Source: an uncultured Flavobacteriaceae bacterium
Lineage (GTDB): Bacteria > Bacteroidota > Bacteroidia > Flavobacteriales > Flavobacteriaceae
DNA length: 64,000 nucleotides
Assembly (NCBI GenBank): GCA_947497145.1
Contig: CANMFQ010000001.1
Span: 310,001 to 374,000, forward strand
Direction of reading: 5' to 3'
The number at the start of each line of letters is the position of its first letter. Positions within the stretch are counted from its first letter, which is position 1. The position numbers and the translations under genes were made by a program. Below the pieces are notes generated by a model. That model was given only the letters and a program-made list of their open reading frames with translations, had not been told where the DNA came from and did not search any database. Below, piece after piece: positions 40,219 to 53,007 of this stretch.

Positions 40219-41291
40219 ATACCAAACTACACAGTATCGCACTACTAAAGCAGGCTAAAATAAAACAGCCAAATTGGATGGGTTTTGCCCAGTTGTTTAA
40301 TTTTTTTAGAAAACCCAAAAGTATTGACCATGTCAGCTATCCTTTAAACCCATTTAAAGCGATGGTGCAAAAGGAAATTTCTGACCATATTAGAAATTGG
40401 CGTTTTATCATTTTGTTTGTGCTCATTGTGTTAGCATGTATGGGTACCCTGTTTTCTACCCTTACCGATAGTATTAAAACACTGGGTGCTGATAGCGCTG
40501 ACAATACGTTCTTTTTTTTGAATTTATTCACTAAATCTGATGGTACCTTACCTTCCTTTTTTGTTTTTGTAGGGTTTTTGGGGCCTTTGTTTGGTATTAG
40601 CTTGGGGTTTGACGCTATAAGTTCAGAACAGAGTAGGGGCACGTTAAGTCGTGTAATGGCACAGCCTATACCAAGAGATTTTATATTGAATGCCAAGTTT
40701 TTAGCAGGTATTATTGTTATCAGTGTCATGCTTTTTGCGTTGAGCTTTTTGGTGATGGGGGCAGGCTTAGCGGTATTGGGTATACCGCCCAGTGCTGAAG
40801 AGTTTATGCGTATTGTGGTATATACGGTATTGAGTATTGTCTATGTTTCGTTTTGGCTAAACCTTTCTATATTGTTTTCTGTTCGTTTTAAACAGTCGGC
40901 AACATCTGCCTTGTTAGGTATTGCGGTTTGGTTGTTTTTTACCATTTTTTACCCGCTAATAGTGAACCTGATTTTAAAGGGTTTTGAACCTTCGCAATAC
41001 GCAGCACCTAGGGCAATTTTTTTATATAAAAAGTTGAAATTTAATTTGGTGCAAATAATGCCCAACGAGTTGTTTGATGAGATTACGTCAGCTGTTTTGG
41101 TGCCTTCTGTACGAAGTTTAGGCCCTTTAACTATGGAGCAGTTGCAGGGTGCGGTGCCAAGTACATTGTCTTTAGGGCAGAGCTTAATTTTGGTTTGGCC
41201 ACAAATTACTGGGCTACTAGCCTTAACCCTGCTTTGCTTTTTGTTTTCGTATGTAGTTTTTATGAAACGCGAAATACGGTCGAGAGGTTGA
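40215..41291 (+). CDS. ABC-2 type permease
   Basis: 358 aa with about six membrane helices after a ~60-residue basic lead. SLGFDAISSEQSRGTLSRVM is the ABC-2 signature loop. With the ATPase and the NEW3 protein it forms a complete exporter of unknown cargo. Confidence 0.9.
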   Translation: MNTKLHSIALLKQAKIKQPNWMGFAQLFNFFRKPKSIDHVSYPLNPFKAMVQKEISDHIRNWRFIILFVLIVLACMGTLFSTLTDSIKTLGADSADNTFFFLNLFTKSDGTLPSFFVFVGFLGPLFGISLGFDAISSEQSRGTLSRVMAQPIPRDFILNAKFLAGIIVISVMLFALSFLVMGAGLAVLGIPPSAEEFMRIVVYTVLSIVYVSFWLNLSILFSVRFKQSATSALLGIAVWLFFTIFYPLIVNLILKGFEPSQYAAPRAIFLYKKLKFNLVQIMPNELFDEITSAVLVPSVRSLGPLTMEQLQGAVPSTLSLGQSLILVWPQITGLLALTLLCFLFSYVVFMKREIRSRG

Positions 41292-41694
41292 AAGGCGTTG
41301 CTGAAGAATGTTGCTAGGAGGGCTCGCCATTATTTTTAGAACTAAAAAGAGGCCGTTTAAAAGCAATTTAGGCGGTCTTAGTTATTGCAGATTATTTGAG
41401 TGCTATTAATGCATAAATTAATATTTTTAAAAGTACTGTAGGAGGGTAGCTAGAGGTTGCACTTCCTTTATATTACTTTTTCTAAAATACTTAAATCTAT
41501 CTGATTAAAATCGTATTGATGTACGGGATGATTCTTTGGAACTAAATTATCCTAACTGGGTGGGAGAAGGCTTCGTTAATCTTGATTGTTGGTCTTCCAT
41601 GCTACTTTTTGACTCATAACTAAACGGTTACAATCCTTTTCAATTTTAAACAAAAAAAGAAGCTGCCTTTTAAGACAGCCTCTTTACGACTGCA
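41292..41694. other. Intergenic region between convergent genes
   Basis: About 400 bp. I see an imperfect hairpin near 41,350 (GAGGCCGTTT ... AGGCGGTCTT) that could end the ABC operon, and a clear terminator for the slipin gene at 41,651-41,687. Nothing else is recognised. Confidence 0.55.
41651..41687 (-). terminator. Terminator of the slipin gene
   Basis: On the minus strand GAGGCTGTC-TTAAAA-GGCAGCTTC followed by T7. Imperfect but stable stem with a U tract. Confidence 0.75.
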
Positions 41695-42792
41695 CTAGTT
41701 TACAGTAAAAATCTCTTTTAGCTGTTTTACCATGCCGCCGTTACCTGATACGGTAATCTCGCCGATTTTCTCAGCGATTTTTTCAACGTATTCCATCTCC
41801 TTCAACTTGAAGAGCATTTCGTTTTCTTCCATCAATTTTGCCGTATTTAGCAAACTTCTGGTTGAAGCGGTTTCTTCACGTCGAGTTATGATATTCGCTT
41901 GGGCTCTTTTTTGAGCTATTAAAACTTGGTTCATGATATCTTTCATTTCACCAGTTAAAATAACATCGCGAATACCGCAGCTTAATATCGTGACACCCAA
42001 TTGGCTAGCTGCTGTTTCAATTTTTGAAAACACCGCATTAGCAATATTCTCTTTACGTTCTAGCAACTCATCTAAGGTATACGTGCCAATGTATGCACGT
42101 AATGCCAATTGTAAGGCGATATACAATTGTTTTTCATAGTCTTTGTTTTCCAATACGGCTTTTTCAATAGCAACTACACGATACTGAGTATAGAAGTTGA
42201 TACGAATCGCAGCCTTGTCTTTGGTTAATAATTCTTGACCTGAAATTTCCAGTTGTAATTGACGCATATCTACTTTTGCAAGCTTGATAGAGCTGTTATT
42301 ACGCCAAAAATGATAGGTGCCGCTATCTAGCGTTTTTACATAAACGTCATCAATTAAAAGTACCGCTTTTTCATAGGCAGCAACTTCTAAGGTACGCATA
42401 TAACTGCGCAGTTGCACATGACTTAGCATTGCTTTGCTAATCGTTTCAGTGATATAAACTTTGCTCAAATCGACTGAAGTGAACGTATAGTTTTTTAAAC
42501 CTTTCCAAAAAGCGTAAGTACCCGTGGTAAGTACATTTTTTAAGATTCCGTTTTCTATAACTAGGCTCAATTCAGCATCTTTTACTTCAACAATATGTAG
42601 CATTGCTTTGAGCGTTTCATCTTGCAACAAAATTTCTAAAGCTATAGGTGCTACAAAGGCTTTTGCTAGGTCATATTCAATAACAGTATTACCTAATCTT
42701 ACCCAGTGCGTACCCTGGGTGATTACTTTTTGGTAATCACCTCTTTTAAAAATTAAACCTACTTTACCCGTATTGATTCTTACACGTTTCAT
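41695..42792 (-). CDS. Slipin / SPFH-Band 7 domain protein
   Basis: 365 aa. Central region (VDMRQLQLEISGQELLTKDK then AAIRINFYTQYRVV; ALRAYIGTYTLDELLERKE; SQLGVTILSCGIRDVILTG) is the SPFH/Band 7 fold of slipins; the N-terminal ~130 residues are an extra domain with no membrane helix. EEMKDIMNQVLIAQKRAQANI-like and RREETASTRSLLNTAKLMEE mark the C-terminal coiled coil. Slipins organise membrane microdomains or assist proteases. It is single and lies at the end of the tRNA array. Confidence 0.88.
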   Translation of the reverse strand: MKRVRINTGKVGLIFKRGDYQKVITQGTHWVRLGNTVIEYDLAKAFVAPIALEILLQDETLKAMLHIVEVKDAELSLVIENGILKNVLTTGTYAFWKGLKNYTFTSVDLSKVYITETISKAMLSHVQLRSYMRTLEVAAYEKAVLLIDDVYVKTLDSGTYHFWRNNSSIKLAKVDMRQLQLEISGQELLTKDKAAIRINFYTQYRVVAIEKAVLENKDYEKQLYIALQLALRAYIGTYTLDELLERKENIANAVFSKIETAASQLGVTILSCGIRDVILTGEMKDIMNQVLIAQKRAQANIITRREETASTRSLLNTAKLMEENEMLFKLKEMEYVEKIAEKIGEITVSGNGGMVKQLKEIFTVN

Positions 42793-43188
42793 AATTAAAA
42801 AATTTGTGTTCGCTTTTGCGAACGGTTAAACAGTATAGTGCTACAGTTTTTTACAATTGCGGGTACAATTATAAAAGGTACTGTATGTTTTAGTTACTAT
42901 TGAAAAGCAGTCATTGTAGGTCATCTTTCTACTACGGAAATAGTGTTTTTTATTGCGTTAACGTGTCGTTTTGTAGTATGCTGTCTAAAGGGTTTAAATG
43001 ATGTTATTCACTTATTTCCTTCAGAAGGATAACTAAAAAAGTATCCGGTAGGACAATAAAAAAGTCAATATTTCAAGGTAGTTTTAAGATTGTCTCTTTT
43101 TCCACAAGGGTAAAGAAACCAACATACAACTACTGCTTTTGTAATTTATAGCCTAACAGGGCTGTGGTCTTTTTACAAGTGACCTTCT
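42793..43188. other. Region between tRNA array and slipin gene
   Basis: About 400 bp without a gene. On the minus strand, downstream of the last tRNA, there are two small hairpins (GGTC...GACC near 43,170 and AGCC-CTGTTA-GGCT near 43,155) but no U tract, so the 3' end of the array transcript is not clear. Confidence 0.45.
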
Positions 43189-43260
43189 TGTTGAAAATGG
43201 ATTTTGAGTCCATAACCTACATTAAAAGTGTAGTGCTCTACCTAACTGAGCTACCTCACC
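43189..43260 (-). tRNA. tRNA-Lys(TTT), atypical in linear reading
   Basis: GGTGAGG-TA-GCTC...GAGC D arm, anticodon arm CTACA-CTTTTAA-TGTAG (TTT), 3-nt variable loop, T arm ATGGA-CTCAAAA-TCCAT, 3' acceptor TTTCAAC. The D and anticodon arms are perfect, but the acceptor has one mismatch and two wobbles and the T loop is not TTCRANY. The 3' half just upstream (43,264-43,297) pairs better with this 5' half; see the permuted candidate. Confidence 0.6.
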
Positions 43261-43297
43261 AAGGGTGAGAACGGGAATCGAACCCGTGACAGCTACG
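43222..43297 (-). other. Candidate permuted tRNA-Lys (3' half precedes 5' half)
   Basis: On the minus strand: CGTAG-CTGTC-ACGGG-TTCGATT-CCCGT-TCTCACC (3' half, 43297-43264), three-base linker CTT, then GGTGAGG-TA-D arm-CTACA-CTTTTAA (5' half, 43260-43222). The joined halves give a 7-pair acceptor (one wobble), 4/5 anticodon stem, a 5-nt variable loop and a canonical T loop. All arm lengths are normal. This order is that of circularly permuted tRNA genes; a mosaic of decayed neighbours is the alternative. Confidence 0.4.
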
Positions 43298-43373
43298 CCT
43301 GTTGTTCTATCCATTGAACTACGATTGCTAGTTGAATCGATGGGAGTCGAACCCATGACTTACAGACTGGTAA
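43298..43373 (-). other. Second candidate permuted tRNA-like sequence
   Basis: 3' half (43373-43333): TTACCAG-TCTGT-AAGTC-ATGGG-TTCGACT-CCCAT-CGATTCA; linker ACTA; 5' half (43328-43298): GCAATCG-TA-GTTCAATGGATAGAAC-A-ACAGG. Anticodon stem ACAGG/TCTGT is 5/5 with a wobble, D and T stems are perfect, acceptor pairs 5/7. The loop would hold ACC, an unusual anticodon. It abuts the permuted Lys candidate with no spacer. Read linearly, the 5' half continues into a shortened anticodon arm. Confidence 0.35.
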
Positions 43374-43534
43374 TCATTTTTTGGAAAATGATTAAAACCA
43401 TCAAGTCAAGTTGCACATGAAACAGTGATACCTTTCGGCAACGCCTCATACAATAGTGCCTTACAGAAACACCCAACAAGACCTGCTTGATATTGTTATA
43501 TCCGTAGAAACGGAAATATTTTCAATGAACTTTG

Positions 43535-43737
43535 TACCTCTTGCCAGATTCGAACTGGCACTTTCGTCGAAACGAACAGATTGGCTATAAATGCGCTTCC
43601 CTACTTTGATGCTACATCGTTTCGGTGCTTCTGCAAATTCTATTCATTGGCAGGCGCGCCGCCAATAACATCATCCAATCACTCCATGAATTCGTTCTAG
43701 TCTTTTTTCACAGCTCTTCCTTTTAAGCTAAAGAGGC
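43535..43737 (-). ncRNA. tRNA-like RNA with ~130-nt insertion
   Basis: The ends pair as a tRNA acceptor (GCCTCTT at 43737-43731 with AAGAGGT at 43542-43536), with a good D arm (GCTT...GAGC) after the 5' end and a perfect T arm (GCCAG-TTCGAAT-CTGGC) before the 3' end. The anticodon region is replaced by ~130 nt holding a hairpin ATTGGCGGCGCGCCTGCCAAT-type stem (split ATTGGC/GCCAAT), and an 8-bp pair CGAAACGA/TCGTTTCG. No anticodon or tmRNA tag is evident. Confidence 0.45.
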
Positions 43738-43883
43738 ATTTTGTTAATCCTCACAGTACTCTTTATTGCTGTAAGGCATTACTACAAGCAATATTTATAC
43801 GAAGCTTGTTTTTTAATCACACAACAAAATTGATTTGTAACTGCGCAAGTATTCTGCGTAGTTTAAATTTCTTTTGCATTTAG

Positions 43884-43956
43884 TAGGAGTAGCAAGACTC
43901 GAACTCGCATTTCTAGGTTCGTAGCCCAGCGTTCTGTCCAATTGAACTATACTCCT
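43884..43956 (-). tRNA. tRNA-Arg(ACG)
   Basis: Acceptor AGGAGTA/TACTCCT (7/7), D arm GTTC...GAAC, anticodon arm CTGGG-CTACGAA-CCTAG (ACG), T arm GCGAG-TTCGAGT-CTTGC. No encoded CCA. All arms pair. Confidence 0.8.
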
Positions 43957-43963
43957 AAATTTG

Positions 43964-44036
43964 TGGAACAGACAGGACTCGAACCTGTATCTTCGGATTT
44001 TCAATCCGTAGCATTGACCATCTTTGCTACTGTTCC
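43964..44036 (-). tRNA. tRNA-Phe(GAA)
   Basis: Acceptor GGAACAG/CTGTTCC (7/7), D arm GCA...TGC, anticodon loop TTGAAAA (GAA) with one A-A mismatch at the stem base, T arm ACAGG-TTCGAGT-CCTGT. No encoded CCA. Confidence 0.8.
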
Positions 44037-44042
44037 TGTTAG

Positions 44043-44115
44043 GGTGTACTCCGGGATTCGAACCCTGTTTTTCCCATTCACAGTGGGACGCTTTACCACA
44101 TAAGCTAGAGACACC
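44043..44115 (-). tRNA. tRNA-His(GTG), weakened acceptor
   Basis: Anticodon arm TCCCA-CTGTGAA-TGGGA (GTG) and D arm GCTT...AAGC are perfect. It keeps the His-specific G at -1 opposite C73. The acceptor has about two mismatches and the T stem one, so stability is lower than normal. Confidence 0.7.
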
Positions 44116-44120
44116 ATTTG

Positions 44121-44192
44121 AAAACCCGAAAGGATTTGAACCTTTACAACAAGAATCAAAATCTTGTATGCTAACCGTTACATCACGGGTCT
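44121..44192 (-). tRNA. tRNA-Gln(TTG)
   Basis: Acceptor AGACCCG/CGGGTTT (one wobble), D arm ATG...CAT, anticodon arm CAAGA-TTTTGAT-TCTTG (TTG), T arm AAAGG-TTCAAAT-CCTTT. The T loop has A in place of the usual G. Confidence 0.75.
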
Positions 44193-44197
44193 ATTGG

Positions 44198-44269
44198 TAA
44201 GCCTACAAAGAATTGAACTTTTACTTCAGGCTTAGAAATCTTGCGTGCTGTTCATTGCACTATAAGTTT
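44198..44269 (-). tRNA. tRNA-Arg(TCT)-like, degenerate
   Basis: D arm GTGC...GCAC is perfect and the anticodon loop TTTCTAA gives TCT, but the anticodon stem CAAGA/GCCTG pairs only 3/5, the acceptor AAACTTA/TAGGCTT has a mismatch and a wobble, and the T loop is TTCAATT. Probably decayed or a non-decoding tRNA-like RNA. Confidence 0.55.
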
Positions 44270-44272
44270 GTG

Positions 44273-44346
44273 TACCCCACCCAAGATTCGAACTTGAACT
44301 TTAAGGATTTTAAGTCCTTTGCCTCTGCCAATTGGGCTAGTGGGGC
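44273..44346 (-). tRNA. tRNA with Leu(TAA) anticodon, short variable loop
   Basis: Acceptor GCCCCAC/GTGGGGT, D arm GCC...GGC, anticodon arm AAGGA-CTTAAAA-TCCTT (TAA), T arm TCAAG-TTCGAAT-CTTGG. Bacterial tRNA-Leu has a long variable arm; here only five bases lie between anticodon and T stems (AAAGT). Confidence 0.75.
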
Positions 44347-44350
44347 ATTG

Positions 44351-44423
44351 TACAGGGAGAGAGATTCGAACTCTCAGCGTACTGGTTCTAAACCAGCTGC
44401 GTTTACCATTTCGCCATCCCTGC
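44351..44423 (-). tRNA. tRNA with Leu(TAG) anticodon, short variable loop
   Basis: Acceptor GCAGGGA/TCCCTGT, Leu-like D arm GCGAAATGGTAAACGC, anticodon arm GCTGG-TTTAGAA-CCAGT (TAG), variable loop ACGCT, T arm GAGAG-TTCGAAT-CTCTC. It lacks the type II variable arm expected for Leu. Confidence 0.75.
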
Positions 44424-44446
44424 ATGTTGTTCAGGCATTAGTCCTG

Positions 44447-44518
44447 TACGCTGTAGGGGAGTCGAACCCCTGTTTCCTGATAGAAAGTCAGGCGTACTAA
44501 CCATTATACGAACAGCGC
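44447..44518 (-). tRNA. tRNA-Glu(TTC)
   Basis: Acceptor GCGCTGT/ACAGCGT (one wobble), D arm GTA...TAC, anticodon arm CCTGA-CTTTCTA-TCAGG (TTC), T arm AGGGG-TTCGACT-CCCCT. Well formed. Confidence 0.85.
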
Positions 44519-44523
44519 AATAG

Positions 44524-44608
44524 TCTGAGAAGCAGGATTCGAACCTGCAACCTCCCGCGTCCAAGGCGGGTAAACAACTCCCGATAGCTATCGGGATTAT
44601 CTTCTCAG
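44524..44608 (-). tRNA. tRNA-Pro(TGG) with palindrome in place of the D arm
   Basis: Acceptor CTGAGAA/TTCTCAG (7/7), anticodon arm CCCGC-CTTGGAC-GCGGG (TGG), T arm GCAGG-TTCGAAT-CCTGC are perfect. Between acceptor and anticodon arm lies TCCCGATAGCTATCGGGA, a perfect 18-bp palindrome, where the D arm should be. Probably insertion of a repetitive palindrome. Confidence 0.7.
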
Positions 44609-44613
44609 TTTTG

Positions 44614-44686
44614 CAGTACCGACGGGACTCGAACCCGTACCTTCCCGATAGACAGTCGGGTGCTCTAGCCTTTGAACTACGGTACT
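44614..44686 (-). tRNA. tRNA-Asp(GTC)
   Basis: Acceptor AGTACCG/CGGTACT (7/7), D arm GTTC...GAGC, anticodon arm CCCGA-CTGTCTA-TCGGG (GTC), T arm ACGGG-TTCGAGT-CCCGT, discriminator G. Well formed. Confidence 0.85.
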
Positions 44687-44690
44687 AATG

Positions 44691-44774
44691 TGGAAGCAAT
44701 AGGACTCGAACCTACACGCTATATAATAGACCTGATTTACAGTCAGGCGAGCCAACCAATTGCTCAATGCTTCC
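44691..44774 (-). tRNA. tRNA-Tyr(GTA)
   Basis: Acceptor GGAAGCA/TGCTTCC (7/7), D arm GAGC...GCTC, anticodon arm CCTGA-CTGTAAA-TCAGG (GTA), long variable arm as expected for Tyr, T arm GTAGG-TTCGAGT-CCTAT. Well formed, 84 nt. Confidence 0.87.
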
Positions 44775-44785
44775 AGTATTATTTG

Positions 44786-44858
44786 AGACAAGAATGAGAT
44801 TCGAACTCATAAAAAATGGGTTTGCAAGCCAATGCTTTAACCATTCAGCCATCTTGTC
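44786..44858 (-). tRNA. tRNA-Cys(GCA)
   Basis: Acceptor GACAAGA/TCTTGTC (7/7), D arm GCT...AGC, loop TTGCAAA (GCA), T arm ATGAG-TTCGAAT-CTCAT. The anticodon stem pairs only 3/5 (TTGGC/CCCAT). Confidence 0.72.
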
Positions 44859-44866
44859 AAATTTTG

Positions 44867-44953
44867 CGGAGGGCAAAGGAATTGAGCCTTCACTACCTAG
44901 TGATAGACTCGCTGAGCAGGCGAGCGCAACAAACCATTATTTGCCTACCCTCC
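44867..44953 (-). tRNA. tRNA-Ser(GCT)
   Basis: Acceptor GGAGGGT/GCCCTCC (one wobble), D arm GCAA...TTGC, anticodon arm CTCGC-CTGCTCA-GCGAG (GCT), long variable arm (TCACTAGGTAGTGA) as in Ser, discriminator G. The T loop is CTCAATT instead of TTCRANY. Confidence 0.75.
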
Positions 44954-44960
44954 AGTTGTT

Positions 44961-45025
44961 TTTACTACGTGAGAGTTGAACTCACACAAGTTGTTATTTT
45001 TATACACAGTTACAGTCATCATTTT
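44961..45025 (-). pseudogene. Degenerate tRNA-like sequence at the start of the array
   Basis: A T arm (GTGAG-TTCAACT-CTCAC) with possible 3' acceptor GTAGTAA is clear on the minus strand, but no matching 5' acceptor or anticodon arm is found upstream. Further up there is an isolated anticodon-like piece ACTTTTAAT (~45,045). Confidence 0.4.
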
Positions 45026-45081
45026 AAATTTTATCGGCTTATTAAAAGTGTGCTATTACAAATAGGCTTGTTTTTAGATAT

Positions 45082-45113
45082 AAAAAAAGCATCTCGTTAT
45101 CGGAGATGCTTTG
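45082..45113 (-). terminator. Intrinsic terminator ending the tRNA-array leader
   Basis: Minus strand AAAGCATCTC-CGATAAC-GAGATGC followed by T7. It lies ~180 bp after the promoter module and ~60 bp before the first tRNA-like sequence, so it would attenuate the array unless read through. Confidence 0.8.
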
Positions 45114-45293
45114 TATATATCGTATTGTTGCTATTAGCTCAACATAGAATACACGTCTTTCTCCGTATAGTACAAATACCCCCTTGACGGCTATAAAACT
45201 GTTCAAAACCTTTCGGCGAACTGAAAGAGAGTTTAATTACTTGTATATGTCTTTTTAAAAATTCCATAGGTATGGGTTGTAATTTATATCGGT
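45114..45293 (-). ncRNA. Putative leader RNA / attenuator of the tRNA array
   Basis: About 200 nt between the -7 box (45,295) and the terminator. Contains small hairpins (TGTTG-AGCTAATAG-CAACA; GTAT-TTGTACT-ATAC) and no open frame of note. It could be a stand-alone small RNA or an attenuator; the sequence alone cannot decide. Confidence 0.45.
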
Positions 45294-45294
45294 G

Positions 45295-45394
45295 CAAATA
45301 TGATATTGTTTTTTGAATTACACAAATAAAAAATTAATTAATTTACTGAATATCAATTAGTTACAGGGATTCTAAGCAATAGAATCCCTGTCCG
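45295..45394 (-). promoter_or_regulatory. Promoter module B (tRNA array)
   Basis: Minus strand: CGGACAGG, ATTCTAT, GCTT, AACTA, TGAT, TCAGT, AATTAA, then ATTTTTTATTTG (-33 TTTG at 45326-45323), 20-bp spacer, CATATTTG (-7). The same blocks in the same order precede the rtcB leader at 48,411-48,512. Here the module also contains a perfect 10-bp hairpin (CAGGGATTCT...AGAATCCCTG). Confidence 0.65.
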
Positions 45395-45502
45395 TCGCAT
45401 TGCGGATTTTGAACCTTTTTTACAATCGTCTGTCTACCAATTGTTTCGTGTTTCAATTATCTAGTTTTGTATTTGTTTACTATTTATTCAATTATTTCAA
45501 TA

Positions 45503-46051
45503 TTATTTCTTGTTCTTTTTCTTCCTCTTTTTAGTAGAAGATTTTTTCTTTTTTACTTTGGACTTTTCTAGCTTCAGTTTCTTTTTAATTCTATTTTCTT
45601 CATCCTCAATAAAAGAAAAGTAGTAATCATTAAAGGCGTACTTTTTTGCTTTTTTAAGATGCTTTATAGCGGTCTTATACGCTTGGTTTATTTCTGATAC
45701 ATATGCAGAAAGCCAATATAAGTCTCCTTTTGATATCCCTTTTCTACTAAAAGCAAATGTGATGAGTTTTTTAGCTTTATCAATTTCATCAGCCCAAATC
45801 AAGTACTTTGCATACATAGGGTATACATCTATATAATCGCTGTTTATGGCAATTACCTTATCAAAGCAATCAAAGGCTTCTTCATATTGATGTAAGTTTC
45901 TTGCGTATATAGTACCCAATAGGCAAAGTGCTGCACAATGATTTTCATCGTATGAAAGTGCATAGTTTAATGATTCGCAAACCTCGTCCCAATCATAACC
46001 TGATGCTGCTTTCGCTTTCAAGTAATAGGTGTCTGCTATTGTTAGTGCCAT
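45503..46051 (-). CDS. TPR-like protein with strongly basic C-terminal tail
   Basis: 182 aa. TPR-like helical pairs (SLNYALSYDENHCAALCLLG; EAFDCFDKVIAINSDYIDVY; KTAIKHLKKAKKYAF) followed by ~30 residues almost wholly Lys/Arg/Ser (KLKLEKSKVKKKKSSTKKRK). The tail suggests RNA or ribosome binding. Its ATG overlaps the end of prfH, so it is translationally coupled to the RNA-repair genes. I know no named family; an adaptor in RNA repair is inference. Confidence 0.75.
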   Translation of the reverse strand: MALTIADTYYLKAKAASGYDWDEVCESLNYALSYDENHCAALCLLGTIYARNLHQYEEAFDCFDKVIAINSDYIDVYPMYAKYLIWADEIDKAKKLITFAFSRKGISKGDLYWLSAYVSEINQAYKTAIKHLKKAKKYAFNDYYFSFIEDEENRIKKKLKLEKSKVKKKKSSTKKRKKKNKK

Positions 46052-46734
46052 GATTGTTTTTTTAAATCGTTTTTTAGTTTGTGCCGTTTTTGTTTATAGC
46101 TTTTTGGTGTTTTTTCATGCTTAAAATCTGTTCCTTTAAAAACTCGAACAGGGTTTCCGCGTTGCAAATTCAAATGATTTTCCCATTGGTCTGTTATGCG
46201 TTCTTTTAGCTGACTTATGTTCACCTCGTTTATCTTCTCTTTTAGTCGAGTAATAGCTAGTTTTTTATTTTGATGTTGCGAGCGACTATCCATGGCAACT
46301 ACTTGAACTCCCGTTGGATTATGAATTGCCCGTACTGCTGAGTTTACCTTATTTACATGCTGCCCACCAGGCCCTGTGCTTCGCATTGTTTTAAACACAA
46401 TATCACGGTCATCAACTTGGGTATACTGGGTTAGCTTCAACTCAAAAACACCAATAAACCAATTTTTTCGTTTGTGATATTTTCTAAATGTTGAGGTACC
46501 CACCCATTGAATGGTACCTAGCCATGTTGCTAAAAAAGCAGTGGTGTTATCACCAATTAAGCGAAGGGTTACCGACTGTATGGTGCCATTTTGTATACCC
46601 TTTTCACGGTGTAAAATGCTAGGATAATAGCCTTTTTCTCTGGCTGCTGCTAAAAACAACTTGAGTACTTGAGCTACAACCCAGCTGCATTCTGCTGGGC
46701 CTTTGCCTGCTGTTATTTGAATTATTCTTTCCAT
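46042..46734 (-). CDS. prfH: PrfH, peptide chain release factor H
   Basis: 230 aa. The GGQ catalytic motif is intact (STGPGGQHVNKVNSAVRAIH), followed by the basic RF C-terminus (SRSQHQNKKLA, KQKRHKLKNDLKKQ). It lacks the codon-recognition and N-terminal domains of RF1/RF2, as PrfH does. PrfH pairs with RtcB and releases peptides from ribosomes damaged at the decoding centre so that RtcB can mend the RNA. It starts 9 bp after the rtcB stop. Confidence 0.92.
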   Translation of the reverse strand: MERIIQITAGKGPAECSWVVAQVLKLFLAAAREKGYYPSILHREKGIQNGTIQSVTLRLIGDNTTAFLATWLGTIQWVGTSTFRKYHKRKNWFIGVFELKLTQYTQVDDRDIVFKTMRSTGPGGQHVNKVNSAVRAIHNPTGVQVVAMDSRSQHQNKKLAITRLKEKINEVNISQLKERITDQWENHLNLQRGNPVRVFKGTDFKHEKTPKSYKQKRHKLKNDLKKQSWH

Positions 46735-46743
46735 TGTTATTTT

Positions 46744-48135
46744 TTAAGTATTCATGCGTACAATTTTTGGCGTGAAAGTGCCAATCACTTCTACCAATTC
46801 TTGCTGATTTGCCATCACTTTTTTTATGTTTTTATACGCCATGGGCGCTTCATCAATTCCACCACCGATAAGGGTTACCTCATGTTGTTGTAATTGTTTT
46901 TTAATTTCACTTTGGGTAAAGGTTTCTTTACATTTTCGTCGTGAAAATAAACGCCCTGCACCGTGAGAAGCAGAATTTAAACTAGCTTCGTTGCCTAAGC
47001 CTCTAACTAAATAGCCAGGGGCAGTCATTGAGCCAGGGATGATGCCTAAAGCTCCTTTAGCGGCTGGGGTTGCTCCTTTTCTATGCACAATACATTCGTT
47101 ACCGTTGATGATTTCTTTCCAAGCAAAATTGTGATGGTTTTCAATTTTTACTAGAGGTTTGGCGCCCAACAATTTTGATAAACGTTTGTGAATATCATCA
47201 TGACAAGCCTTTGCATAGTCTCCTGCCAAATTCATTGCTAACCAATATTCTTGACCATCGTGGGTGTTCATATCAAGCCAAGCCAAATGCTGTACATGCT
47301 TGGGCAAGGGACATTGTTTTGTTGCTAAGTAGGTATAATGCTTAGCAATATTTGCTCCTAACCCTCGTGAGCCACTATGTGATAGTACGCCCAAATATTC
47401 GCCTACAGGTAGCTGCCATTCGTTTGTTGCATCAGAAATGGCTACTGCGCCAAATTCTACAAAGTGATTGCCACCACCCGAGGTGCCCAATTGTTTATAC
47501 GCCTTGTCTTTTAATCTTTTTACTAACGGAATTGTTTTAAATTCATCGCGTTCAAAGATTTCATGGTCGTGCTTAATTGCATGGGTTTCCATCATTCCAA
47601 ATTTGGTGTGATTGGCCAAAATACTAGCCAATTGTTGCCTTTTCCCTTTCAAAAATGAAACGGGAATCGGATACATAGTTAAGCACATTCGGCAACCTAT
47701 ATCTACACCCACACCATAAGGTATTACAGCATTGTTGGTGGCTAAAACTCCGCCAATAGGCAGTCCGTAGCCAGTATGCGCATCGGGCATTAAAGCCCCA
47801 GCAACTGAAATTGGTAATTTTAAAGCATCGTATAGTTGGTACTTTGCTTGGTCATCAATTTCGTTTTCACCGTAAATATGAAAGGGTGCTCTATGTGATT
47901 TTAGTTGCTGTTTTTTTACATTAACAGGGTTTACTAAACTCTCTGCAATCTTGCCCCATACCGCATCACCTTTATAGTTTTCTGGATGCAATAAAACATG
48001 CTTTGCTTCCATCAATATTTGTGCTTTCTTTTTTCGTTTTTGATATCTATTAATTTGCCCTAAAGCAATATTGATACTATTGTTTTTTGGAAAGCCTAGT
48101 TTTATTAGGTCTTTTCCACTTAATTTCTTTCCCAT
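46744..48135 (-). CDS. rtcB: RtcB RNA ligase
   Basis: 463 aa. Mn-site and GMP motifs are present: MPDAHTGYGLPIGGV, GVGVDIGCRM, GTSGGGNHFVEFG, HSGSRGLG, ENHHNFAW, HRKGATPA and the guanylylated His in SASHGAGR. RtcB joins 2',3'-cyclic-phosphate or 3'-phosphate ends to 5'-OH ends and so repairs tRNA and rRNA cut by ribotoxins. This copy belongs to the prfH-associated type by context. It lies ~100 bp after a leader terminator and heads rtcB-prfH-TPR. Confidence 0.95.
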   Translation of the reverse strand: MGKKLSGKDLIKLGFPKNNSINIALGQINRYQKRKKKAQILMEAKHVLLHPENYKGDAVWGKIAESLVNPVNVKKQQLKSHRAPFHIYGENEIDDQAKYQLYDALKLPISVAGALMPDAHTGYGLPIGGVLATNNAVIPYGVGVDIGCRMCLTMYPIPVSFLKGKRQQLASILANHTKFGMMETHAIKHDHEIFERDEFKTIPLVKRLKDKAYKQLGTSGGGNHFVEFGAVAISDATNEWQLPVGEYLGVLSHSGSRGLGANIAKHYTYLATKQCPLPKHVQHLAWLDMNTHDGQEYWLAMNLAGDYAKACHDDIHKRLSKLLGAKPLVKIENHHNFAWKEIINGNECIVHRKGATPAAKGALGIIPGSMTAPGYLVRGLGNEASLNSASHGAGRLFSRRKCKETFTQSEIKKQLQQHEVTLIGGGIDEAPMAYKNIKKVMANQQELVEVIGTFTPKIVRMNT

Positions 48136-48231
48136 GATTTAATTTTTAGGAATAGTAGGACCGTTTCCATTACGGAAATAGCCTATTGTGTTTACTAAAA
48201 GTTTCGAAAATTGAACCTAATTGAAAGGCAT

Positions 48232-48267
48232 AAAAAAAAGTCCGAAACATTAAGGCTTCGGACTTTC
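48232..48267 (-). terminator. Intrinsic terminator in the rtcB leader
   Basis: Minus strand AAAGTCCGAA-GCCTTAATG-TTTCGGACTTT then more T. It lies between the rtcB promoter module and the rtcB start, about 100 bp before the gene. Confidence 0.85.
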
Positions 48268-48409
48268 TTTCATAATCTATTGTAGATTTATGTATGTGTG
48301 AAGTCCTGAAGCAAACCTGTAAAAACACCCGGTGTTTTTGATAGGTAATGGCGTGTGATTATATAAGTCATCTACTTCAGTTAATATAAGTTTTGTGCTT
48401 TATTGCGTT
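48268..48409 (-). ncRNA. Putative leader RNA / attenuator of rtcB
   Basis: About 145-175 nt from the -7 box to the terminator. Pairings: CTGAAG with CTTCAG closing a ~70-nt domain that holds a hairpin AAAAACACC-G-GGTGTTTTT. No open frame. Arrangement promoter-structure-terminator-gene is that of an attenuator; a free small RNA is also possible. Confidence 0.5.
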
Positions 48410-48410
48410 G

Positions 48411-48512
48411 CAAACCTAAAACCAATTTTTAATATATGCAAATAAAAATTCAATTTAATTAACTGATAATCAGATAGTTGTGTTTATTTTGAAGCATAGA
48501 AATACCTGTCCG
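48411..48512 (-). promoter_or_regulatory. Promoter module A (rtcB operon)
   Basis: Minus strand: CGGACAGG (48512-48505), TATTTCTAT, GCTT, AACTA, TGAT, ATCAGT, AATTAA, ATTTTTATTTG (-33 TTTG at 48442-48439), 20-bp spacer, TAGGTTTG (-7, exact TAnnTTTG). Homologous to module B before the tRNA array. Confidence 0.7.
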
Positions 48513-48601
48513 TTTTTCAACAGATACCTCCATTCGTTGTAGTGAACTGGGAGTCAAATATTTAGTATTCAATCTTTTCAGCGGTTTTGTAAACGTTATA
48601 A

Positions 48602-48637
48602 GCAAAAAAAAGCGTTCAATTTCTTGAACGCTTTTTG
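48602..48637 (-). terminator. Intrinsic terminator after the S24-like gene
   Basis: Minus strand AAAAAGCGTTCAA-GAAA-TTGAACGC then T8. A strong stem, ~145 bp after the S24-like stop; it separates that transcript from the rtcB promoter module. Confidence 0.88.
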
Positions 48638-48779
48638 AGAATCTATTTTTTACAACCGTATTATCGACTACATTGATATGTAAATAGCTTTTCAGCGTTC
48701 GCTATGTGTTTCAAATAATTTGGCATCTCTTCTATGTTAATTGTTTTTAAATTCAACTATTAAAAATGAGGTATGGCAC

Positions 48780-49067
48780 CTAAAGTATTGCTATTACTTT
48801 GCCATACACATTTTTTGTCCATCCGTTAATTCTTCCGTGATTATTGCCAATAAGCAAACCACGTTTATCATTCTTGCCTTTAACGAGGTGGGTATATACG
48901 TTACCACGTACCTTGCAGAATACGATATCACCAACCTTACAATCTTCCCAGCTAATAGGTGTAAGACGCACAGGCTGTTTTGATTTTATGATAGGTAACA
49001 TCGAATTACCGGGTTCTTTTGAAATGATGGTCTTTCCATCAAGTAATTTTTGAATTTTCCAATTCAT
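48780..49067 (-). CDS. S24/S26-like peptidase-fold protein
   Basis: 95 aa from MNWKIQKLLDGK (a start 13 codons earlier is possible). PGNSMLPIIKSKQPVRLTPI and VGDIVFCKVRGNVYTHLVK, then LLIGNNHGRINGW match the S24/S26 catalytic-domain fold (SM serine motif, downstream K in HLVKG). There is no DNA-binding domain. It could be a self-cleaving regulator partner or a remnant of a LexA-like repressor. It is upstream of the RNA-repair operon on the same strand. Confidence 0.7.
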   Translation of the reverse strand: MNWKIQKLLDGKTIISKEPGNSMLPIIKSKQPVRLTPISWEDCKVGDIVFCKVRGNVYTHLVKGKNDKRGLLIGNNHGRINGWTKNVYGKVIAIL

Positions 49068-49533
49068 ATGTTCAATTTTAAATGTTATGCATACCATTAT
49101 TGGCATGCATATCCTTTAAAATTTTTCAAAAGAACTACGCAACTCATATTATGTATTAAAAAATCTATGTCCACTTAAAATCACTATAAAATAAAACGTT
49201 ACGTAGCATTTTACAATTTCATTTTAAGCTTCATTATGAAGTTTTTCTACATAATTCGGTTTCAATGAACTGCTACAAAGATGCATAATATGAGGGATAT
49301 AGTCAAAAAAAAAATGTGACACAGCTTGTTTTTCTGTTGAATGAGCGCTTAAGAACGAATTCTAGTTGATGCGCAACGAATACTAAAAGAGGGTGATTTT
49401 TAAGTTTGTTCGCAGCTACATTTGATAGCAAATAACAATGAACTCATCTTGACTTTTTCTGTTAGCTACAAAACCATAATGCTGGGTTCTAAAGAAAAAA
49501 GTCAAGACAAGTTCATAATCAAAAACTAAAATC
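49068..49533. other. Divergent intergenic region
   Basis: About 465 bp. On the minus strand a promoter-like pair TTTG / CATCTTTG lies near 49,280-49,315, giving the S24-like gene a long leader (~200 nt). The complete small inverted-repeat element at 49,440-49,514 lies just before the vWA gene. Confidence 0.45.
49440..49514. repeat. Small interspersed element with terminal inverted repeats
   Basis: Left arm GAACTCATCTTGACTTTTTC, right arm GAAAAAAGTCAAGACAAGTTC-type (split GAAAAAAGTC/AAGACAAGTTC), 75 bp overall. Homologous to 57,974-58,046 and to fragments at 961 and 32,840. No coding capacity; MITE-like. Confidence 0.7.
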
Positions 49534-51690
49534 ATGAAACTATTATGTACATTTTTTCTATTGTGTGTCTTTACAACTGGTGTGGCTCAAGATGATGGGA
49601 GCCCTTATTTATATGTGTCTACAAAGCATGCTGTGATACCCCTTAAAGCATCAAAAACCGATGTTCAAATTTCAGGTTCGATTGCGCATGTTCGTATTAC
49701 TCAGGTATATCAAAATTTAGGTAAGCAACCCATAGCCGCCAAGTATGTATTTCCACTTGCTACACAGGCTGCTGTTCATAAAATGCAAATGGCCATAGGT
49801 AATCGTATTATAAATGCTAAAATATTTGAAAAAGAAGCGGCGCAAAAAGTGTATAAAAGGGCATTGAAAGAAGGAAAACGGGCCGCAAAATTAGACCAAA
49901 ATAGACCGAACGTTTTTCAAATGGATGTTGGTAATATTATGCCCAATGATGAAATTACCATTACCATTTATTATACCGAGATGTTACTGCCTGTTGATGG
50001 GGAATATCAGTTTGTTGCTCCTGCTGTAGTTGGCCCTCGTTTTACTGGTGAAAGTACCCAAGCTGAGGCTGGTTTTGAAATGCCATATACGGCAAAGGGT
50101 ATTGCTGATACCTTTGATTTTGATATGATGGTTACCATAAATGCAGGCATAACTATAAAAAGTATTACCTCTAGTAGCCATGAGATAGGTGTTAATTATC
50201 CTAATAGTAAAACGGCAGAAGTCTTTTTGGCAAAAAGTAATAGAAATCCATCGAATAGAGATTTTATTTTGAATTATAACTTACGGGGCAATACGATAGA
50301 ATCAGGACTACTGTTGTACGAGCATGAAGATGAGCATTTTTTTGCCTTTCAAATGGAACCAACCCAGCATATCGCGGTAGCTGATATTCCTGCGCGTGAG
50401 TATCTCTTTATCGTTGATGTTTCGGGTTCTATGAACGGATACCCGCTTGATGTTGCCAAAGGGTTAATGCGAAATTTACTATGTGACTTGAGACCTACAG
50501 ACACCTTTAATGTTCAACTATTTGCATCAAGTAGCACGGTTTTTAGTAGCATGCCTGTTGAAACAAATGCTCAGAATATTGATGCAGCTATTCGCTTTCT
50601 TTCGGAAGGGCAGGGTGGTGGAGGTACACAATTGCTTAGTGCTTTGCAACAGGCGTATAAATTACCAAGAAAAGATACCAGTAGTGCTCGCTCTATGGTG
50701 GTAATAACCGACGGTTATGTGAGTGTAGAAGATGAGGCTTTTGAGCTGATAAGAAATAATTTAAACCAAGCTAATGTGTTCACCTTTGGCATTGGTACAA
50801 GTGTTAATAGACATCTTATTGAAGGTATGGCAAAGGTTTCTAACAGTTTGTCTTTTGTGGCTACCAATAACAGCGAAGCGCAGGAAGTAGCAAAAAGGTT
50901 TAAGAAATATATAGCAAGTCCATTAGTAACTCAAGTAAAAATTAAAGCAGAAGGTTTTGATATGTATGCGGTTACCCCCAGTAGTATACCTGATGTTTTT
51001 GCATCAAGACCCGTTACTGTTTTTGGTAAATACAGGGGCAAGGCTAGGGGTACAATCATAGTAACAGGCTATCAAGGTGGTAAGAATTTTTACCAAGAAT
51101 TTAGGGTGTCACAGGGTAATTTGAGCAAAGCCAATAAGGCCTTGCGTTATTTGTGGGCACGGAAAAAAATTGCGGCTTTAGACGATTATAGAAAATTGTC
51201 TGATACTGCCGAAAGGGACAGCGTTATTGCTTTAGGCTTAAAATATAATCTGGCTACCCAATACACTTCTTTTGTGGCTGTAGATGAAACTGTGGTTAAT
51301 AAAGATGAAGAAATAAAGACGGTGAAACAGCCTTTGCCTATGCCGCAACATGTGAATAATTCAGCGGTAGGGGCAGAAGCCGAAGTTAGTGTTAAAACAA
51401 AATTTACGACATCGTTTAAGGTAGCTTTTGAAGATGATGTAACAAAGACAGTACAAAGAAATACGACCATGCAGTTTAAAGCATTATATGCAAAACTGGT
51501 AATGAAACACCTAGCTAAGAACCAACAATTGCGTTTAAAATTTGATGCTCAGGGTGTGCTAGTTAAGGTTGAAAGCATGGAAAATGGTAAATGGGTGTTT
51601 TCTCAAGTGCTCACCAAAACGTTTTTAGAATCGTCATCAAGGCCGATGAAAATTGCTAAAGAAATGACCTTGACAGTTCGTTTGGGGTGA
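49534..51690 (+). CDS. VIT and vWA domain protein
   Basis: 718 aa with a signal peptide. A VIT domain (LGKQPIAAKYVFPLATQAAV; FEKEAAQKVYKRALKEGKR) is followed by a vWA domain with intact MIDAS (FIVDVSGSMNG) and TDGYVS, then a beta-rich region. Architecture resembles inter-alpha-trypsin-inhibitor heavy chains and bacterial surface proteins that bind matrix or partners through Mg. Single gene with its own terminator. Confidence 0.9.
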   Translation: MKLLCTFFLLCVFTTGVAQDDGSPYLYVSTKHAVIPLKASKTDVQISGSIAHVRITQVYQNLGKQPIAAKYVFPLATQAAVHKMQMAIGNRIINAKIFEKEAAQKVYKRALKEGKRAAKLDQNRPNVFQMDVGNIMPNDEITITIYYTEMLLPVDGEYQFVAPAVVGPRFTGESTQAEAGFEMPYTAKGIADTFDFDMMVTINAGITIKSITSSSHEIGVNYPNSKTAEVFLAKSNRNPSNRDFILNYNLRGNTIESGLLLYEHEDEHFFAFQMEPTQHIAVADIPAREYLFIVDVSGSMNGYPLDVAKGLMRNLLCDLRPTDTFNVQLFASSSTVFSSMPVETNAQNIDAAIRFLSEGQGGGGTQLLSALQQAYKLPRKDTSSARSMVVITDGYVSVEDEAFELIRNNLNQANVFTFGIGTSVNRHLIEGMAKVSNSLSFVATNNSEAQEVAKRFKKYIASPLVTQVKIKAEGFDMYAVTPSSIPDVFASRPVTVFGKYRGKARGTIIVTGYQGGKNFYQEFRVSQGNLSKANKALRYLWARKKIAALDDYRKLSDTAERDSVIALGLKYNLATQYTSFVAVDETVVNKDEEIKTVKQPLPMPQHVNNSAVGAEAEVSVKTKFTTSFKVAFEDDVTKTVQRNTTMQFKALYAKLVMKHLAKNQQLRLKFDAQGVLVKVESMENGKWVFSQVLTKTFLESSSRPMKIAKEMTLTVRLG

Positions 51691-51718
51691 TAGTATTAAA
51701 AAGCCGTTTTTATTTAAA

Positions 51719-51757
51719 AAAAGCTTCGCAAAATTTCTAAAATTTGCGAGGCTTTTG
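51719..51757 (+). terminator. Terminator of the VIT/vWA gene
   Basis: AAGCTTCGCAAA...TTTGCGAGGCTTTT: a long A+T/GC stem followed by T. A perfect 14-bp palindrome GGCTGCATGCAGCC follows at 51,782-51,795. Confidence 0.75.
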
Positions 51758-51825
51758 CATGTATGAAATTGTTTTATTGATGGCTGCATGCAGCCAACCT
51801 TTGGGCTTGTTGTAGTTTCTGGCAA

Positions 51826-53007
51826 TTATCGGGTTACAGTAATTTTTACGGTATCTTCGGTTTTATTCGAAAACTCATCAACTGCAGTAAAAATTAGTTC
51901 AAAATCTCCTTCCGTAAGTGGTAATCCTGATAATTTCCTCTTTTTGCTGTCAAATTGCAACCAATCAAATGCATGCTGATTAATGCTGAGAGTCAGTTTT
52001 TTAGCATCAATGTCTTTAAAATAGTCACTAGGAATAGTAATTTCAAATTTCTTGTCAATTGGAACTGTTACATTCGCTAAGGGGTTGAACACAAAAGGTT
52101 TAAATACTTTTGCCGTATGCACCCAGTAAATATCAGATTCTAACAATTTGAAAGCTTTAATTTCTAGGCGTGTAAAAAACAACAATTTATTGTCGATACT
52201 TACAAATGGGCGTCTATCCCAATGTTTTGAATTTATAGTTGCATCTAGCATTTGGGGTGCTGTCCAATGCCCATCAAGGGTGCGATAACTTATATATAAA
52301 TCTGCGTTGGTTTCTTTATCAGTATATCTGCAAAAGAGTATGTATGTTTCTTTTGGGGAGATAAATACACTTTCTTCATCATTAGCAGAATTTAATTCAG
52401 CTATTTCATGTACATCAGTATAGGAGTTAGCTGTTAATTTTGAGTAAAATAAATCGGCGGTGTAACAGTTTTCTTTTCCCTGGCAATTTCTATTTGATGA
52501 AAAATAAATGGTGCCGTCATTAGTCATACTAGCGTTAGCTTCTCTGCTTGTTGAGCTTAGGGGCGCATATATTTTTTTAGGAGAATTCCAACTGTCATTA
52601 TTTTTTTCAAGCTTCCAAATATTGGTGATATACAAGCTAGTTGTATCAGGGATGCTTTGTGCATAGAGTAATGATTTGCCATCAGGGCTAAAGTAGGGAA
52701 GATATACGTTTTTGTTTTCTAATGGTTTAAAACCTATTGGAGTACTCCATGTACCCGCTGTTTTTTTTGAATAGTAAATGTTTCCTTTTATTGCCTGCTT
52801 ATCTAATATGCCAAATGCCACTTCTTGAGCGTCAGGGGAGAATGAAATACCATGTTCAAATCGACCTTTTTTTGAGATTAACCCTTTGCCAAATACTACA
52901 GGGGTCGTTTTTGGTGCTGTTTGTCCAAAATAATCAACGCTAACCTTAGTGGTTTTACAGCCAATCATTGTGATAGCGGCAATAAATAGAAGAAATTTTA
53001 AGGGCAT
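51826..53007 (-). CDS. PD40 (TolB-like) repeat lipoprotein with C-terminal cadherin-like domain
   Basis: 393 aa. Lipoprotein signal (LLFIAAITMIGC). Residues ~45-300 hold TolB-type PD40 repeats (ISFSPDAQEVAFGI, PYFSPDGKSLLYAQ, ASMTNDGTIYFSSNR). The last ~85 residues (VTVPIDKKFEITIPSDYF; LSGLPLTEGDFELIFTAVDE) resemble a dystroglycan/cadherin-like domain. Surface or periplasmic binding protein of unknown partner. Confidence 0.8.
   Translation of the reverse strand: MPLKFLLFIAAITMIGCKTTKVSVDYFGQTAPKTTPVVFGKGLISKKGRFEHGISFSPDAQEVAFGILDKQAIKGNIYYSKKTAGTWSTPIGFKPLENKNVYLPYFSPDGKSLLYAQSIPDTTSLYITNIWKLEKNNDSWNSPKKIYAPLSSTSREANASMTNDGTIYFSSNRNCQGKENCYTADLFYSKLTANSYTDVHEIAELNSANDEESVFISPKETYILFCRYTDKETNADLYISYRTLDGHWTAPQMLDATINSKHWDRRPFVSIDNKLLFFTRLEIKAFKLLESDIYWVHTAKVFKPFVFNPLANVTVPIDKKFEITIPSDYFKDIDAKKLTLSINQHAFDWLQFDSKKRKLSGLPLTEGDFELIFTAVDEFSNKTEDTVKITVTR

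Follow-up and report, generated by a model that had tools for sequence, protein, structure and literature searches.

Why should a cluster of divergent tRNA genes lie beside genes for RNA repair? The question is raised by a 64,000-nucleotide (nt) stretch of DNA (the window; GenBank assembly GCA_947497145.1, contig CANMFQ010000001.1, positions 310,001 to 374,000) from an uncultured Flavobacteriaceae bacterium with a genome of 5.1 Mb in 198 contigs. On the minus strand, genes for the RNA ligase RtcB, the ribosome-rescue factor PrfH and a TPR protein are followed by an array of tRNA genes, by two structured RNAs, here called RNA A and RNA B, and by a gene for an SPFH/Band-7 protein. The reading that we hold to be probable, with some reserve, is that this is a translation-emergency island, in which two co-controlled units would supply repair enzymes, spare tRNAs and a ribonucleoprotein (RNP) made from RNA B and the SPFH protein. 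The island is conserved and is larger than in an earlier note on this stretch, whose account of the repair and tRNA genes is now extended by the SPFH/Band-7 gene, two leader-terminator units and the two structured RNAs. The adjacency, which that note allowed might occur in one strain only, recurs in other genera, so the layout is not a chance one.

The two units, one running from rtcB through prfH to the TPR gene and the other from the tRNA array through RNA A and RNA B to the SPFH gene, share the design of their control regions:

48464–48525, minus strand: operator/palindrome upstream of rtcB, the same element as at the array (upstream alignment and pattern search of the own genome)
48406–48414, minus strand: promoter −7 region of the rtcB unit, TTTGCAACG (upstream alignment)
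48288–48371, minus strand: open reading frame (ORF) for a 27-residue leader of the rtcB unit, with an antiterminator segment at 48301–48306
48232–48266, minus strand: intrinsic terminator between this leader and rtcB
45347–45407, minus strand: operator/palindrome upstream of the tRNA array (upstream alignment and pattern search of the own genome)
45290–45298, minus strand: promoter −7 region of the array unit, TTTGCACCG (upstream alignment)
45139–45267, minus strand: ORF for a 42-residue leader of the array unit, with an antiterminator segment at 45160–45165
45082–45112, minus strand: intrinsic terminator between this leader and the tRNA array

A profile made from array upstream regions also detects those of rtcB, and 26 upstream regions, picked by profile matches, align over a palindrome, an operator-like block and a TTG...TTTGCA promoter. 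The operator-promoter pattern has seven matches in the bacterium's own genome (none in the control), two of which are the island promoters. Downstream of the promoter, 23 of 25 units have a leader ORF and all 25 have a terminator, which reaches a dG < −10 in 24 of them compared to 38 of 400 control sites. In 20 of 23 units, against an expected 1.67, the antiterminator segment starts 18–30 nt short of the leader's end; it covaries with the 5′ arm of the terminator, both sides changing together. The rtcB leaders are near-constant in length (27–28 residues). Among 32 loci with RNA B that were fetched later (one of them, L205, from the genome of training locus L046), the element is present in 22, with 24 plus-strand hits, most of which precede the TPR gene, the array or RtcB; a terminator stands at 19 of the 24. 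At the level of sequence, each island unit thus has the parts of an attenuator, namely a leader ORF, a terminator and a competing antiterminator near the leader end, and we read the arrangement as ribosome-mediated transcription attenuation, its direction and trigger being those proposed below. The functional link between rtcB and the array that the earlier note had suggested is supported by the common promoter/operator element and the same leader-terminator design. As a weak side observation, the array leader peptides are poor in Ala, Gly, Val and Thr, for which the arrays mostly lack tRNAs.

The array itself comprises 13 credible tRNA genes for 11 amino acids, 11 called by ARAGORN, an Arg(TCT)-like gene found by Rfam and a Ser(GCT)-like gene found by homology, a little short of the at least 14 genes for 12 amino acids first counted:

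44867–44953, minus strand: tRNA-Ser(GCT)-like, homologous to an ARAGORN Ser(gct) in L046 and without an ARAGORN call in the window
44785–44858, minus strand: tRNA-Cys(GCA), ARAGORN
44690–44774, minus strand: tRNA-Tyr(GTA), ARAGORN
44613–44686, minus strand: tRNA-Asp(GTC) with a pyrimidine at position 37, ARAGORN
44523–44594, minus strand: tRNA-Pro(TGG) with an irregular 5′ part and altered position 37, ARAGORN
44446–44518, minus strand: tRNA-Glu(TTC) with altered position 37, ARAGORN
44350–44423, minus strand: tRNA-Leu(TAG) without the long variable arm, ARAGORN
44272–44346, minus strand: tRNA-Leu(TAA) without the long variable arm, ARAGORN
44198–44269, minus strand: tRNA-Arg(TCT)-like, RF00005 at 41.1 bits
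44120–44192, minus strand: tRNA-Gln(TTG), ARAGORN
44042–44114, minus strand: tRNA-His(GTG) with altered position 37, ARAGORN
43963–44036, minus strand: tRNA-Phe(GAA), ARAGORN
43883–43956, minus strand: tRNA-Arg(ACG) with altered position 37, ARAGORN

A further Lys-like unit that had been noticed beside these genes (43189–43260) scores 45 bits as a tRNA, and it makes better sense as a piece of a permuted tRNA-like RNA. All 13 isoacceptors have a separate housekeeping gene in the window genome, which holds 46 Rfam tRNA matches including the array. The array is thus redundant and stands apart from the housekeeping set, as in the trn operon of Anabaena, and its members are not the genome's sole ordinary copies. 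In a survey of 48 loci, 23 arrays with at least five tRNAs were found; the commonest tRNAs are those for Asp, Phe, Leu, Tyr, Glu, Cys and Gln (in 21 down to 17 arrays), and the rare ones are those for Ala (1), Thr (1), Gly (3), Ile (4) and Val (5).

Array tRNAs keep their body and change their anticodon loop. Standard stem pairs are formed at 97.2%, U33 is kept throughout, and the discriminator base N73 differs from that of the housekeeping tRNAs in only 20 of 259. Position 37 is altered in 129 of 259 array tRNAs compared to 0 of 27 between the housekeeping sets of two genera (the window genome and G352), position 38 in 100 of 259 compared to 0 of 27, and position 32 in 118 of 259 compared to 2 of 27. 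U37 replaces A37 in 23 of 24 Asp and in all 18 Glu tRNAs, A37 is lost in 14 of 21 Phe tRNAs, and G37 is lost in all Gln (19), Pro (17) and Arg(ACG) (12) tRNAs, in 16 of 19 for Leu(TAG) and in 11 of 15 for His. The array tRNA-Leu genes, which lack the long variable arm, measure 74–76 nt compared to 83–85 nt for the housekeeping ones of the same genome, which have it. Judged by their sequences, the array tRNAs look functional. Identity between same isoacceptors is 0.784 among arrays at different loci and 0.601 between arrays and the housekeeping set of the window genome; because of this difference, 78% compared to 60%, the arrays are taken to have a descent of their own.

Between the array and the end of the second unit lie the two structured RNAs and the SPFH gene:

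43536–43737, minus strand: RNA A, some 200 nt long, whose tRNA-like ends flank a large conserved insert (profile search; five loci including the window)
43367–43493, minus strand: 5′ structured domain of RNA B, model R1 (covariation)
43304–43357, minus strand: permuted tRNA module 1 of RNA B, consisting of T arm, acceptor hairpin and D arm (module and T-arm analysis)
43217–43287, minus strand: permuted tRNA module 2 of RNA B with an anticodon-arm-like hairpin (YrlA alignment)
41695–42792, minus strand: SPFH/Band-7 (slipin-like) protein with three N-terminal beta units (PF01145 at 100.4 bits, above the cut-off of 23.6)

RNA A stands between the array and RNA B, and no Rfam match is listed for its region. 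RNA B spans about 43217–43493. In its 5′ domain, 96.6% of the cells are paired compared to 33–47% when the partners are slid by one to three columns, a figure taken from the same 13 sequences that gave the structure; 16 pairs are changed on both sides, and none of 500 shuffles scored as high. The acceptor strand pairs (at least 6 of 7) downstream of 64 of 96 T arms in RNA B and upstream of 8 of 96; in the arrays, by contrast, the pairing is downstream for 24 of 216 T arms and upstream for 147. RNA B therefore has the permuted order of T arm, acceptor and D arm that is seen in the Rfam model of YrlA (RF02553). The YrlA model itself scores 49.1 bits in the window, below its gathering cut-off of 69. 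Two other sets of loci also gave sub-threshold matches, at least 17 of 20 loci in one and 8 of 10 in the other, all below 69 among the matches listed. The R1 model, built from 13 loci and used with filters that drop weak matches, found RNA B in 40 of 396 genomes of the family Flavobacteriaceae, with one copy in each; a class-wide search found it in 5 of 395 genomes, all of the same family.

A large RNA of another kind accompanies RNA B at some loci. GOLLD (RF02032) has no match in positions 40000–52000 of the window at E ≤ 1. In a scan of 30 loci from 29 genomes, mostly with 1.5-kb flanks, full-length GOLLD-like matches stand upstream of RNA B in three other genomes, at 119–125 bits (E < 1e-30; gathering cut-off 150). 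Apart from that scan, a partial one lies behind the array in L047, and L046, L051 and L087 gave no such match:

L183, 1743–2238, minus strand: GOLLD-like RNA, full length (RF02032, sub-threshold)
L178, 907–1379: GOLLD-like RNA, full length (RF02032, sub-threshold)
L192, 781–1261: GOLLD-like RNA, full length (RF02032, sub-threshold)
L047, 17097–17383: GOLLD-like RNA, partial, behind the array (RF02032, 83 bits)

In mycobacteria, GOLLD sits beside tRNA arrays or clusters (PMC9569102).

The steady partners of the array are the SPFH protein and RNA B, not PrfH. Searched with its N-terminal part, the SPFH protein occurs in 40 of the 396 family genomes, 39 of them common with RNA B; only G036 has RNA B without this type of SPFH protein, its locus L168 retaining no T arm in that region, and only G033 has the protein without the RNA. 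The SPFH gene lies 3′ of RNA B on the same strand in all 32 later loci. Of the 40 genomes, 39 have an SPFH gene and 32 a TPR gene no farther than 8.5 kb from RNA B, and these two are steadier neighbors than the rest; over the same distance, RtcB of any kind is present in 22 genomes, a regulator of the WYL type in 14 and PrfH in 11. At some loci (L206, L208, L168, L204 and L216) there are also RlaP-type nucleotidyltransferases and an RNase T-type exonuclease. Ro60, the protein partner of Y RNAs, has no match in the window genome, which is thus without the protein half of a Ro60–Y RNA RNP. Ro60/TROVE occurs in 2 of the 396 family genomes (L212 and L230), in both on the same strand downstream of this locus's SPFH gene.

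Relatives of the SPFH protein outside the family, at 96–98% coverage and 34–41% identity, come from plasmid-collection records of E. coli, Citrobacter, Burkholderia, Photobacterium and Subdoligranulum. The Citrobacter homologue adjoins rtcR and a nucleotidyltransferase gene, an RtcB relative follows the SPFH gene in the Burkholderia, Photobacterium and Subdoligranulum records, and T-arm motifs lie no more than 0.4 kb upstream of the SPFH gene in the five outside loci examined. Because of these motifs and the RtcR or RtcB neighbors, the pairing of an SPFH protein with a tRNA-like RNA appears older and wider than the Flavobacteriaceae. The predicted structure (mean pLDDT 72) consists of three beta units, the SPFH domain and a poorly predicted helical C-terminus; no membrane segment was seen by eye at the N-terminus. 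The best match of the whole model is to stomatin-type proteins, with a further match to the major vault protein over residues 2–283. The beta units modeled alone reach a pLDDT of 85, and a structure search with them matched nothing strongly, so that a relation to vault proteins would be a tentative one.

The other unit encodes the repair enzymes:

46744–48135, minus strand: RtcB RNA ligase of the RtcB2 type, adjoining prfH (PF01139, 275 bits)
46042–46734, minus strand: PrfH ribosome-rescue release factor (TIGR03072, 227.7 bits, above the cut-off of 166.65)
45503–46051, minus strand: TPR protein with a basic tail rich in Lys and Arg (TPR models match below their cut-offs only)

These matches agree with the original description of rtcB, prfH and a TPR gene with a Lys/Arg tail on one strand, and the adjacent rtcB and prfH have the gene layout of an RtcB2–PrfH rRNA-repair module. 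Of 43 RNA-B loci, 35 contain a homologue of the TPR protein. Among the matches listed, the named rtcB loci closest to that of the window come from Flavobacteriaceae such as Zobellia. Around 80 rtcB loci (the best 80 of a larger number, from named genomes, some shortened by contig ends), prfH is present in 74, the SPFH gene in 7 and an array of at least five tRNAs in 5, so rtcB–prfH is usually found without a tRNA array. The earlier note had seen in the array a dedicated set next to RtcB and PrfH; these are not its steady partners, given these 5 loci and the 11 genomes with PrfH near RNA B. The RtcB2–PrfH module of E. coli protects against colicin E3, which cuts 16S rRNA (PMC9223846), and gives no protection against the tRNA-cutting colicins E5 and D (PMC9223846). 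Because of this failure against E5 and D, the enzymes and the array tRNAs probably handle different kinds of damage. Upstream of rtcB is an ORF of 108 residues (48780–49106) that had been called S24-like; the ORF is there, and its identity is weak (PF00717 at E 0.012, below cut-off). Homologues lie within 8.5 kb in 3 of 43 RNA-B loci, counting the window, and in 5 of 80 rtcB loci. The window genome also has a second, divergent RtcB gene elsewhere (G000:C5:11632–12393, L044).

How might such an island work? Under the translation-emergency reading, the two units would be transcribed from the common promoter/operator element and each would be held off by the terminator behind its short leader ORF. 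The segment near the leader end is predicted to pair with the 5′ arm of the terminator. A ribosome that completes the leader would mask this segment and transcription would stop; a ribosome stalled early would leave it free and allow read-through. Cut tRNAs or damaged ribosomes would then be the trigger that turns on three answers. RtcB2 and PrfH would rescue ribosomes and reseal cut 16S rRNA, as others showed for the E. coli proteins. The array tRNAs would serve as back-ups that can be charged by the normal synthetases and are probably poor targets for anticodon nucleases. Phage tRNAs are known to carry anticodon-loop mutations (PMC10264068), and Trp, Tyr, Cys and Phe tRNAs of Salmonella are cleaved after position 36 (PMC7790460); because of these precedents, the array tRNAs are possibly nuclease-resistant. 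RNA B and the SPFH protein, given their near-obligate co-occurrence, would assemble into an RNP for the handling or repair of broken RNA, in parallel to Y RNA and Ro60. A more ambitious version would make the island a translation-gated second decoding kit, in which cleavage-resistant parallel tRNAs are joined by a ring- or cage-like SPFH RNP with a permuted-tRNA-module RNA, that is, a Y RNA that swaps Ro60 for SPFH, with GOLLD as an interchangeable RNA part. This version is tentative, and we would sooner expect it to fail in some part than to hold.

Several observations weigh against the translation-emergency reading. PrfH is near RNA B in only the 11 of 40 genomes given above (in G319 it lies about 9.8 kb away, beyond the 8.5-kb radius). 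Fewer than five tRNAs stand upstream of RNA B in 23 of the 40 (at least five in 17, one to four in 15 and none in 8), and the Pro and Arg(TCT) genes of the window appear partly degraded. Position 37 is unchanged in array tRNAs for Lys, Tyr, Asn, Cys, Ser, Trp, Met, Val and Arg(TCT), and therefore nuclease resistance could not be general; Tyr, Cys and Trp, which are cut after position 36 in Salmonella, are among these nine kinds. Taken one by one, the antiterminator pairings do better than their shuffles (p < 0.1) in 19 of the 24 units but not in every one, and among the later loci 10 of 32 have no element and 5 of 24 element hits have no terminator. The leaders were picked through a promoter match and related species are not independent, which makes the P values too optimistic. 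Array tRNAs of all genera were compared to the housekeeping set of the window genome alone, with the anticodon serving as the label for matching, and ARAGORN prefers well-paired genes, which biases the stem-pairing and U33 figures upward. The function of the island as a whole is inferred from sequence.

The earlier note had offered two uses for the tRNAs, replacement and decoy. As decoys, expendable array tRNAs would soak up anticodon nucleases or sequester their partners. Divergent extra tRNAs next to repair genes would suit this role, as would the retained loops of Lys, Tyr, Asn, Cys and others, and Hughes et al. consider that YrlA might inhibit a nuclease competitively (PMC7790460). One would expect a decoy, however, to retain the recognition site of the nuclease, and its identity for a synthetase would be dispensable, yet positions 32, 37 and 38 are often altered and N73 is mostly kept. 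Because the loops are altered and the discriminator base is mostly kept, the evidence favors spare, usable tRNAs, and we consider decoys unlikely. A more distant use, that of codon supply or ordinary growth-related tRNA dosage, would be helped by a genome that is not tRNA-rich at 46 matches, where extra copies could matter. The array tRNAs are far from the housekeeping ones, though, tRNAs for Ala, Thr, Gly, Ile and Val are seldom included, and a terminator stands in front of the array, and we would be greatly surprised if this explanation were correct.

The array could also be anti-defense tRNA cargo derived from phages or plasmids and now passive in chromosomes. This accords with phage tRNAs that bear anticodon-loop mutations (PMC10264068), with mycobacterial arrays that have been termed a putative antidefense system (PMC12803027) and with the co-localization of GOLLD with such arrays (PMC9569102). 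Nevertheless, we give it little credence: SPFH relatives number 0 in 50,697 phage records, none was confirmed in a pattern-based scan of viral contigs, the stems are 97.2% paired, and the array is co-regulated with repair genes in the window and its relatives. Finally, the leader-terminator units might be incidental, with control left entirely to a regulator, of the WYL type or another, that acts at the shared operator. The operator-like element is conserved, and in 14 of the 40 genomes a WYL-type protein is encoded on the opposite strand no more than 8.5 kb from RNA B. This too seems improbable, as it would leave aside the near-constant 27–28-residue rtcB leaders and the covarying antiterminator at a near-constant distance, and no WYL gene is clustered within 8.5 kb of RNA B in the window.

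Most parts of the proposed island have known counterparts. In Anabaena, the trn operon holds a large set of redundant tRNA genes that is repressed while the cells grow normally and turned on under translational stress (PMC10272220), and rtcB and a slipin gene are in the same TrcR regulon (PMC10272220). Both systems link a redundant tRNA array with rtcB and a slipin-type gene, the induction being known for Anabaena. The Anabaena array is on a megaplasmid, with rtcB and the slipin gene as separate genes under the RHH repressor TrcR (PMC10272220), whereas in the window the genes are adjacent and have leader-terminator units. The rsr-yrlBA-rtcBA operon of Salmonella combines an RNA ligase with a tRNA-mimicking Y RNA and is induced by broken tRNAs (PMC7790460). 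The likeness lies in the ligase and the tRNA-mimicking RNA, the induction again being known for Salmonella. The window differs in that an SPFH gene follows the tRNA-like RNA in place of Ro60, and in the addition of PrfH and a full tRNA array.

Burroughs and Aravind reportedly described, in 2016, SPFH/Band-7 RNA-repair modules in which an SPFH protein has a cognate tRNA-like RNA. The SPFH homologues of Citrobacter, Burkholderia and Photobacterium, which have RtcR or RtcB as neighbors, resemble such modules; the family-specific 5′ domain of RNA B, the array and the attenuators may set the window apart. RtcB2–PrfH modules with an accessory TPR gene are known (PMC6514570), and as in the window some partner proteins have charged regions (PMC9223846, PMC6514570), but the accessible parts of these papers describe them without a tRNA array, RNA B, SPFH or an attenuator. 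Redundant, divergent tRNA clusters with altered anticodon domains occur in mycobacteria and phages (PMC9569102, PMC10264068, PMC12803027), in mycobacteria with GOLLD as a neighbor; in the same accessible parts they are described without RtcB, SPFH or a Y-like RNA, and in phages, plasmids and presumed transferred elements. RtcB2–PrfH–TPR, a stress-induced tRNA operon, a Y RNA beside rtcBA and SPFH-linked RNA repair are thus known. We did not find their combination described in the titles and abstract openings returned by a search of a library without most of the subscription literature and without the 2016 review closest to the subject, and as far as searched it may be new.

The island joins in one testable locus redundant tRNA arrays, SPFH or slipin proteins beside RNA repair, Y-like RNAs without Ro60 and the place of GOLLD. 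From it one would expect a simple sensor, in which a damaged translation system reads a leader peptide, and natural tRNAs whose loops are altered beside the anticodon, where anticodon nucleases act. If the more ambitious version is true, GOLLD, as an interchangeable RNA part, would gain a biological context.

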